Shown in pieces: positions 3,680-6,252 of a stretch of 38,057 nucleotides of DNA. This DNA is from Treponema sp. GTDB taxonomy: Bacteria; Spirochaetota; Spirochaetia; Treponematales; Treponemataceae. The stretch is taken from contig JAILEY010000064.1 in the NCBI GenBank assembly GCA_024687165.1, positions 1-38,057 of the forward strand. The letters run 5' to 3'. Made by a program: the position numbers and the translations under genes. The number at the start of each line of letters is the position of its first letter. Positions within the stretch are counted from its first letter, which is position 1. The notes beneath the pieces are model-generated. The model worked only from the letters and a program-made list of their open reading frames with translations. It searched no databases and was not told the origin of the DNA.

Positions 3680-4304
3680 CCTCAGCATTTTTACAAAGCT
3701 TTTTTACGGGACACTCACCACATTTTGGATTTCTTGCGGTACAAATATATCTTCCTAAAAGCAAAAGCCAGTGATGAGCATTAAGCGCAAACTCATCAGG
3801 AATAACTTCAAGCAAATCTTTTTCAACTTTTTCAGGAGTATTTCCACAGCTTAAGCCAAGTCTGTTTGAAACACGAAAAACATGAGTATCAACAGGCATC
3901 GTTGGCTTTTTAAACCACACGTTAAGAACAACATTTGCAGTTTTTCTTCCGACGCCGGGAAGTTTCACAAGCGCTTCAAGTTCATCAGGCACTTTAGAAT
4001 CGTAATGTTCAATTAAAGCCCTGCTGAGTTCAAGTATATGTTTTGATTTATTTTTATAGAGACCAACAGGTTTGATGAATTCAATAAGCTTTTCTTCACC
4101 TAATGAAATCATCTTCTGTGGAGTGTCAGCCGCTGCAAAAAGATCTTTTGTAACGGCATTGACACCCTTATCTGTAGACTGAGCTGAAAGTACAACTGCA
4201 ACAAGCAGAGTGTATGCAGAAGTAAAATCAAGCTCAGGTTTGGGATTTTTATTCTGTTCCCGCAGTAAACTGAAAATCTCAGATATTCTTTTTGAGTTCT
4301 TCAA
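3669..4304 (-). CDS. nth: Endonuclease III, DNA glycosylase/AP lyase
   Basis: Endonuclease III removes oxidised pyrimidines and nicks the abasic site in base-excision repair. The helix-hairpin-helix with the catalytic lysine is plain ([14 protein letters not shown]), the catalytic aspartate follows in VDTHVFRV, and the C-terminal [4Fe-4S] motif C-x6-C-x2-C-x5-C is intact. I place the start at a TTG (4304) because the resulting [18 protein letters not shown] lines up with the E. coli N-terminus and gives 211 residues, the E. coli length. A longer in-frame TTG lies at 4343. The gene overlaps the end of metK by 26 nt, so it is probably co-transcribed with metK and may depend on metK translation. 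Confidence 0.93.
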
Positions 4305-5505
4305 TTTTATCTGTTTTTTCCCATGGGAATTCAGGACGACCAAAATGACCGTAAGCAGCTGTCTTTGAATAAATTGGCTGTTTAAGGTTCAAAGTCTTTA
4401 CGATTCCAGCAGGTGTACAGTCAAATACCTTTGAAACAGCAGTTTCAATCTTTGATTTTTCTACTTTTTCTGTTCCAAATGTTTCAACCATGATTGATAC
4501 AGGCTTTGCAACACCAATTGCATATGCAAGCTGAACTTCTGCACGATCTGCAAGTCCTGCTGCAACGATATTTTTTGCAATATAACGTGCCATATATGCT
4601 GCTGAGCGGTCAACCTTTGAAGGATCCTTTCCACTGAATGCACCACCACCATGACGTCCCATTCCGCCGTAAGTGTCAACAATAATCTTACGTCCTGTAA
4701 GTCCGCTGTCTCCATCAGGTCCACCAGTTACAAAGCGTCCTGTAGGATTAATATGGAACTTTGTATTTTCATCAAGAAGTCCTGTAGGTTCAAGAACAGG
4801 CTTAATCACTTCGTTGATAATTGTATTCTTCAGGATTTCATGAACTTTTGCTTCATCAGTTTCACCGTTAACTTCTGCATCATGCTGATGAGAAACAACT
4901 ACTGCATCAATTCTTACAGGCTTGTTTCCTTCATATTCAATAGTAACCTGAGATTTAGCATCCGGACGAAGCCACTTAATCTTTCCAGAATGTCTAAGTT
5001 CATGTGCCTTAAGCAGAATCTGGTGAGAATAATAAACCGGTGCCGGCATAAACTCAGGAGTTTCGTTACATGCAAAACCGAACATCATTCCCTGATCTCC
5101 GGCTCCCTGTTCACCCTTGTTTTCTACACCTTCACCTACAACACCCTGATTGATGTCTGCAGACTGAGCATGAAGTCTGTTCATAAATTCAAACTTTGCA
5201 CCGTCAAGACCAACTTCATCAGCATTATATCCGATAGAAAGTGCAACTTTTCTTGCAATTCCTTCAGCTTCTTTTGCAATTGTTTCCGGAAGTTTTGGAT
5301 CTGGATTCTGGAAACCGATTTCACCACCAATAAGAACAAAATTTGTTGTGGCAAATGTTTCGCAGGCAACATGTGCATTCGGGTCTAATTCAAGACAACG
5401 GTCAAGAATGGCATCAGAAATCTGGTCACAAAGCTTATCCGGGTGACCTTCGCTAACTGATTCAGATGTAAATAAATAGTGATTGTTAGATAAGATAGTA
5501 CTCAT
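4279..5505 (-). CDS. metK: S-adenosylmethionine synthetase
   Basis: MetK makes S-adenosylmethionine from methionine and ATP, with release of phosphate and diphosphate. Family blocks are all present: [20 protein letters not shown] near the N-terminus, [12 protein letters not shown] in the middle, and [15 protein letters not shown] plus [19 protein letters not shown] towards the C-terminus. At 408 residues it is slightly longer than most bacterial MetK proteins. I chose the ATG at 5505 because AGGAGG stands 6 nt before it; an upstream in-frame codon would put that sequence inside the gene. Directly upstream is a short leader with a SAM-II-like riboswitch core that contains this Shine-Dalgarno sequence, so product feedback at translation is expected. 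nth follows with an overlap. Confidence 0.97.
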
Positions 5506-5511
5506 AATGAG

Positions 5512-5580
5512 CCTCCTATTTAGCATTTCTTCAGAACAAACTGTCCTGTTCCGCCAGCAAGTTGGATAAATCAGCGGAAT
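5512..5580 (-). promoter_or_regulatory. SAM-II-like riboswitch in the metK leader
   Basis: Read on the minus strand, TTCCGC (5579-5574) pairs perfectly with GCGGAA (5554-5549) to form P1. The loop reads TGATTTATCCAACTTGCTG, matching the SAM-II consensus blocks GCUGAUUUA, CC and UUGC with the same spacings as I recall for the crystallised metX SAM-II aptamer. Downstream GCTAAA (5524-5519) is followed after 2 nt by GG, again as in SAM-II. Pseudoknot pairs GC(5558-5557)/GC(5524-5523) and CC(5565-5564)/GG(5516-5515) are possible. The second pair involves AGGAGG, the metK Shine-Dalgarno sequence, so bound SAM should block translation. A 7-bp hairpin with a 3-nt loop (5548-5532) is inserted before GCTAAA. 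Recognition is from memory, without a covariance-model search. Confidence 0.85.
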
Positions 5581-5595
5581 ATCGTAGATGAAAAG

Positions 5596-5624
5596 AATAT
5601 AACGCGCTCCCTAAAAAAAATCAA
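5596..5624 (-). promoter_or_regulatory. metK promoter
   Basis: On the minus strand TTGATT (5624-5619) and TATATT (5601-5596) are separated by 17 nt. The predicted start, near 5589, falls 10 nt before the P1 stem of the riboswitch-like leader, so the mRNA leader contains just the aptamer and the ribosome-binding site. Confidence 0.7.
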
Positions 5625-5706
5625 GTTCATTTTTTATAAATTCAATAAAATTGATGATACAAAGATTAAAATGCAGTGGCAAAAAAAAATGTGGGACGAA
5701 AATATT

Positions 5707-5777
5707 CTGTTTGTTGCAGTCGCGATAGCGACATAATAAATAGTTACTTTGCAACAAACAGTATATAGCTCTATATA
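5707..5777. repeat. Nested inverted repeats in the metK/CBM48 gap
   Basis: The gene-free stretch between the metK promoter and 5882 contains CTGTTTGTTGCA (5707-5718) and its perfect complement TGCAACAAACAG (5750-5761). Between them is GTCGC-GATA-GCGAC (5719-5732), a 5-bp hairpin. Right after follows TATATAG-CT-CTATATA (5762-5777), a third inverted repeat. Further on, 5778-5881 is AT-rich with several T runs and no recognisable gene. The block could be a small-RNA gene, an operator or a mobile-repeat remnant; I cannot choose among these. Confidence 0.6.
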
Positions 5778-5881
5778 GCGCGGTTTCTTTACACACAAGA
5801 CGACCGGAAGTCAATTTTTATATTTTTTTTCAATAAAGTATTTAATTCAAGCTAATATTTCTCAATTTTATTTTATTTCCC

Positions 5882-5910
5882 TTGTTTTTCATTTTTTTTT
5901 GTATTAAGAT
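5882..5910 (+). promoter_or_regulatory. Probable promoter of the CBM48 gene
   Basis: TTGTTT (5882-5887) and TAAGAT (5905-5910) are spaced by 17 nt, followed by an AT-rich leader and AGGAG 8 nt before the ATG at 5944. Both boxes depart from consensus at two positions or so, hence moderate confidence. Confidence 0.5.
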
Positions 5911-5943
5911 TATTTAAAAAGAAAATAATCAGGAGAAGAAAAA

Positions 5944-6252
5944 ATGGCACTTAAAAAAACTTATTCAAAAGACAAGAAAACTTGTAACGTTACATTCAAG
6001 CCTCGCCCAGAGCAGACAAACGGTGTAGAAAAGGTTACAATCGCAGGAGATTTCAACAGCTGGAGCAGCACTGAAACTCCACTTAAGCAGGGAAAAGATG
6101 GTACATGGTCTGTAAAGATCGCTCTTGAAGCTGGAAAAGAATACCAGTTCCGCTATCTTTTTGACGGTAAACACTGGGACAATGACTGGGAAGCAGACAA
6201 ATACATTCCTGCTCCATTCTCAAACACAGACAACAGTGTAGTTATCTGCTAA
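5944..6252 (+). CDS. Solo CBM48/isoamylase-N-like carbohydrate-binding protein
   Basis: The 102-residue protein is essentially one early-set beta domain of the CBM48/AMPK-beta glycogen-binding type: VTIAGDFNSWSSTETPLKQ, then DGTWSVKIALEAGKEYQFRYL and FDGKHWDNDWEADKY. The Trp after GDFNS and the conserved Y-x-F-R-Y and W-x-N-D patterns fit glucan binding. No signal peptide and no catalytic domain are present, so it probably acts in the cytoplasm, perhaps on glycogen or as a partner of a glycogen enzyme, by analogy with AMPK-beta. AGGAG stands 8 nt before the start. It is a single-gene unit with its own likely promoter and a strong terminator. Confidence 0.85.
   Translation: MALKKTYSKDKKTCNVTFKPRPEQTNGVEKVTIAGDFNSWSSTETPLKQGKDGTWSVKIALEAGKEYQFRYLFDGKHWDNDWEADKYIPAPFSNTDNSVVIC

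Follow-up and report, generated by a model that had tools for sequence, protein, structure and literature searches.

A predicted SAM-II-type pseudoknot with an added hairpin precedes metK in Treponema and would act as a translational SAM riboswitch

The window analysed here, a stretch of 38,057 nucleotides from a Treponema sp. assembly, carries metK on its minus strand, encoding a methionine adenosyltransferase of 408 aa (TIGR01034, 567.3 bits). Its leader, at about 5589-5505, contains a helix (P1) with a set of short loop blocks, a hairpin and GCUAAA, followed by the AGGAGG of metK. The first-pass annotation had described a SAM-II-like element here, with metK as the controlled gene, and every piece that it named (P1, the loop blocks, the 7-bp hairpin and GCTAAA-UA-GG reaching into AGGAGG) was located on the minus strand, with the ATG of metK after AGGAGG. 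A longer reading frame starting at 5526 was rejected as a mechanical start inside the leader, and the ATG is placed at 5505. The features of the leader are as follows.

5596..5624, minus strand: putative promoter, TTGATT (5624-5619), 17 nt, TATATT (5601-5596); weak, 9/12 matches
About 5589, minus strand: predicted RNA start, a guess from the promoter-like site
5574..5579 (5579-5574), minus strand: 5′ strand of the P1 helix, UUCCGC; P1 covaries in 5/5 modelled pairs
5567..5572, minus strand: GAUUUA, which would form the third strand of the P2 triplex, with the equivalents of SAM-V U8, U9 and U10; from conservation in 85 sequences
5564..5566, minus strand: UCC, 5′ strand of P2a, predicted to pair with GGA in AGGAGG; nearly invariant, with pairing in 99.2% of cells
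5565-5564, minus strand: CC within the loop, read from the sequence
5557..5561, minus strand: CUUGC, 5′ strand of P2 (UUGC at 5560-5557); from alignment to SAM_alpha and relatives
5549..5554 (5554-5549), minus strand: 3′ strand of the P1 helix, GCGGAA; from covariation
5532..5548, minus strand: P3, the added hairpin, CAGGACA-GUU-UGUUCUG, 7 bp; 8/8 modelled P3 pairs covary in relatives
5519..5531, minus strand: A-rich joint, then GCUAAA (5524-5519), 3′ strand of P2; GCUAAA invariant in 85/85
5512..5517, minus strand: AGGAGG, Shine-Dalgarno sequence of metK, with its first GGA as the 3′ strand of P2a and GG at 5516-5515; from the sequence
4279..5505, minus strand: metK, from ATG (5505-5503)

The P1 loop of the window reads GAUUUA-U-CC-AA-C-UUGC, the joint between the P3 hairpin and GCUAAA reads AAGAAAU, and UA separates GCUAAA from the GG of AGGAGG. 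GAUUU, UUGC and GCUAAA thus stand in SAM-II order, as the first-pass annotation had it. The 3′ end of the aptamer lies inside the Shine-Dalgarno sequence, 6 nt before the metK ATG, and no terminator-like site was found in 5490-5940. The consensus-like promoter claimed upstream stood only in part: TTGATT-17-TATATT is present, but the region holds four promoter-like sites against 2.3 expected from its shuffles, and across leaders a -10 element at a regular distance before P1 is only weakly enriched. Because the site barely exceeds what such shuffles yield, the mRNA start is uncertain, and the position of about 5589 is a guess. Next to metK, the plus strand at 5944-6252 encodes a protein of 102 aa that has a glycogen-binding domain of the CBM48/AMPK1 type; the start of a similar gene also lies beside metK in many Treponema without the element.

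We confirmed that the leader element is real and not a product of chance. The window contains the core pattern a single time, and 0/100 shuffles contain it. A covariance model (R1), built from the leaders of 22 relatives with the window left out, scored the window at 54.5 bits with an E-value of 7.6e-11 in its own genome, where the runner-up site reached an E-value of 0.08; the calibration was short, so these E-values are rough. R1 found no further convincing copy in the source genome, leaving a single one, before metK. No SAM-I riboswitch was found in that genome. The single-sequence folding energy of the leader is ordinary (z 0.30).

The structure was examined on an R1 alignment of 87 leaders, with covariation counted over 85 distinct sequences. 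P1, P3, P2 and P2a were written onto the alignment by hand, as a nested RNAalifold fold skipped both the pseudoknot and P3, and were tested with shuffled and slid controls and by folding the linker independently of the model. Over the 85 sequences pairing holds in 95.3% of pair cells. Double changes occupy 312 cells, where shuffles have 85 (0/500 reach the observed number), and the covariation score is 0.450 against 0.132 shuffled and 0.035-0.074 with slid partners. Changes on both sides occur in 5/5 pairs of P1 and in 8/8 pairs of P3, which bears out the inserted hairpin that the first-pass annotation had placed before GCTAAA. Since an alignment fitted to these two helices leans towards their pairing, the stretch from P1 to GCUAAA was also folded alone, and its mean z against shuffles is -3.0. 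P3 is 7-8 bp long in most members, and its loop reads CGUAYG in 42/85 leaders while its stem varies freely. Covariation in the pseudoknot had also been named as a check; P2 (UUGC with GC-U-AA) and P2a (UCC with GGA) are 98-99% paired and almost invariant, too conserved to covary within this clade, and we infer these pairs from conservation and analogy instead.

The element precedes metK in 81 of the 108 genus genomes with a readable main metK leader, one of them (L129) counted by its covariance model match, and is absent from about a quarter. Leaders were taken from the same genus and from named genomes, among them Treponema sp. JC4, whose leader carries the element, Candidatus Treponema caballi and Candidatus Treponema equi. 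It appears to have been lost, or never gained, in several Treponema lineages, T. lecithinolyticum included. Two metK leaders from outside the genus (L047 and L219) carry the element, also with P3. In L219 (1501-1690), from another family of the order, it lies ~100 nt before the ATG; its GGGAGG might pair with a CCTCCC further downstream, and this suggests an expression platform of another kind. Eight genomes of the genus have an additional metK that shares about 54-58% identity with the query; both of the second-copy leaders examined lack the element. Fourteen weaker R1 matches elsewhere in the phylum were mostly chance-like, and a search of viral contigs gave no match.

P3 is missing in only four element-bearing genomes (L138, L139, L140 and L187), whose leaders occupy two separate positions, with P3-bearing relatives around them, on a metK tree (row L263 of which is mis-framed and meaningless). 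P3 was therefore probably lost at least twice, as the simplest reading of these two places; this history is tentative, as metK may itself move between lineages.

A match to the Rfam SAM-II or SAM-V model had been proposed as a check on the assignment, and it did not materialize: at gathering level (36 bits for RF00521, SAM_alpha; 41 bits for RF01826, SAM_V) Rfam release 15 gave no match in the window, the leader or 20 relatives, and the matches returned by scans of the window and leader were chance only. The best metK leader was the P3-less L187, which aligns to the entire SAM_alpha model yet at 23.1 bits stays below the cut-off. Across 149 spirochaete genomes SAM_alpha matched two places, both sub-threshold and neither before metK, and in 59 genomes of the genus SAM_V had no match at metK; five of its weak matches elsewhere in the genus were inspected and are unlike the metK element. 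The SAM-II long loops model (RF01726) did not match the metK leaders. Judged from its sequence, the core is of the SAM-II type, because SAM_V is absent at metK and the P2 of its consensus (UUGUGC/GCAC) differs. As the features tested fail in both Rfam families, we file the element in neither, and it would work like both; it is best described as a SAM-II core with a SAM-V-like periphery.

The two SAM_alpha places, L191 (1501-1582; 29.6 bits) and L192 (1501-1575; 28.2 bits), are SAM-II-like elements in other spirochaete families with no obvious methionine gene downstream. L191 also matched RF01726 below its cut-off, and the possible P2a of L192, CAC/GUG, would be CC/GG in compensated form. In a distant spirochaete, L230 (1501-1546) holds a compact SAM-II-like sequence (GGCCGATTTGTTATCCGTATTGCAGGCC...GCTAAAAAGGAG; model score just 22.4 bits) directly 5′ of an ORF of 232 aa that may begin with a helix-turn-helix.

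In the SAM-V riboswitch the adenine of SAM pairs with U47, its sulfonium is placed by U9 and U20, and its amino acid end meets A50, itself paired with A18 (PMC6061858). We transferred this numbering by lining up the two blocks UUGC and GCUAAA. Seven of the resulting positions, equivalent to U9, U10, U20, U47 (5522 in the window), A48, A49 and A50, are invariant in 85/85 sequences, and that of U19 is kept in 83/85. The U8 equivalent is U in 80/85 and G in 5/85. At the A18 equivalent 77/85 sequences have A and eight, the window included, have C, which is the SAM_alpha consensus. The conservation of the GATTTA, TTGC and GCTAAA blocks in related metK leaders, which the first-pass annotation had called for, is thus very clear, and the conserved contact positions are strong, if indirect, pointers to SAM as the ligand.

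We infer that the metK leader is very probably a translational OFF riboswitch for SAM, belonging to the SAM-II/SAM-V pseudoknot group. SAM riboswitches commonly control metK (PMC2864571), and translational control has been proposed for SAM-V and for the metX SAM-II switch (PMC6061858). Without SAM, P1 and P3 would form and AGGAGG would be open to the ribosome. Abundant SAM would slot into the triple helix that GAUUUA, UUGC and GC-U-AA form in P2 and stabilize the pseudoknot; the loop UCC would then pair with GGA of AGGAGG (P2a), and production of SAM synthetase would stop. P3 probably stacks beside P1, in the position of the SAM-V P3. OFF control of translation is the direct reading of an aptamer that ends in the Shine-Dalgarno sequence so close to the start in a region where no terminator-like site was found. 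These same two features make it exceedingly improbable that the aptamer is real but acts mainly on transcription, even though most SAM-II switches, as in alphaproteobacteria, work in that way (PMC2258182, PMC6061858).

The remaining alternatives concern the ligand and the class. The leader could be a conserved structure that responds to a ligand different from SAM, such as SAH, or is bound by a protein, and the CGUAYG loop shared by 42/85 leaders, which might be a protein or tertiary contact, speaks for this; we consider it very unlikely, as the regulated gene makes SAM and the equivalents of U9 and U20, around the sulfonium in SAM-V, and of the adenine-pairing U47 do not vary. It is scarcely less improbable that the element is a true SAM-V riboswitch that arrived in spirochaetes from marine or Bacteroidetes lineages. 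Its P3 in the same place, its short P2a including the Shine-Dalgarno sequence and its translational control would fit, but the SAM_V consensus has a core of UAUUGUGC...GCACUAAA with a 4-bp lower P2, the leaders have UUGC...GCUAAA like SAM_alpha, the SAM_V model does not match them and its weak matches in the genus lie elsewhere, and P3 measures 7-8 bp instead of 3. A doubtful but somewhat better prospect is a distinct class that joins SAM-II and SAM-V, in which a SAM-II core would carry a long P3, the recurrent CGUAYG loop of P3 would be a functional tertiary or protein contact and metK would be set by SAM together with a second input.

With the translational OFF switch for SAM as the preferred reading, the host is a further point of interest. 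The literature assigns SAM-II to Bacteroidetes and three proteobacterial classes (alpha, beta and gamma), and SAM-V to marine bacteria (PMC1273637, PMC2704228, PMC2258182, PMC2864571), and riboswitches have been called rare in spirochaetes (PMC2258182). No published SAM-II or SAM-V switch in spirochaetes or Treponema was found in the freely readable papers searched, so that an earlier report may exist. The spirochaete host that had been suggested is upheld, and the SAM-II/SAM-V group would extend to a phylum described as poor in riboswitches (PMC2258182) and to host-associated bacteria instead of the sea. The predicted regulator is common before a gene central to metabolism, yet escapes the current Rfam models. 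Nature provides some 80 variants, P3-bearing and P3-less, as material for studying the effect of P3 on SAM affinity and switching. The pattern suggests that the SAM-II/SAM-V split is partly a matter of one peripheral hairpin, kept and lost within a single genus.

Compared with SAM-II (RF00521), the element has P1, the GAUUU third strand and the UUGC and GCUAAA strands in identical order, a loop C-strand that would pair just 3′ of GCUAAA (P2a), an association with methionine/SAM genes, and a P1 backed by covariation, with double changes in all five pairs. It differs in its spirochaete host, in a P2a of just 3 bp embedded in the Shine-Dalgarno sequence, in scores below gathering for all leaders tested, and in the P3 of 7-8 bp that most Treponema members add between P1 and the 3′ pseudoknot strand. 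With SAM-V (RF01826) it shares a P3 stem-loop in that place, A residues after P3, and a short P2a containing the Shine-Dalgarno sequence with translational control, here predicted from UCC/GGA within AGGAGG. In SAM-V, P3 is 3 bp long and the A residues after it stack against P1 (PMC6061858); the Treponema P2 lacks the UUGUGC/GCAC lower pairs and has UUGC/GCUAAA, its P3 is longer, and these Treponema are host-associated whereas SAM-V is known in marine bacteria. SAM-II long loops (RF01726) is also a SAM-II pseudoknot variant outside alphaproteobacteria, and its model is without P3. The suggestion that the insertion may define a new structural subtype holds in part: an extra hairpin at this place has a precedent in the SAM-V P3 (PMC6061858), and what appears new is the long P3 on a SAM-II-type core, with P3-less forms within the same genus.
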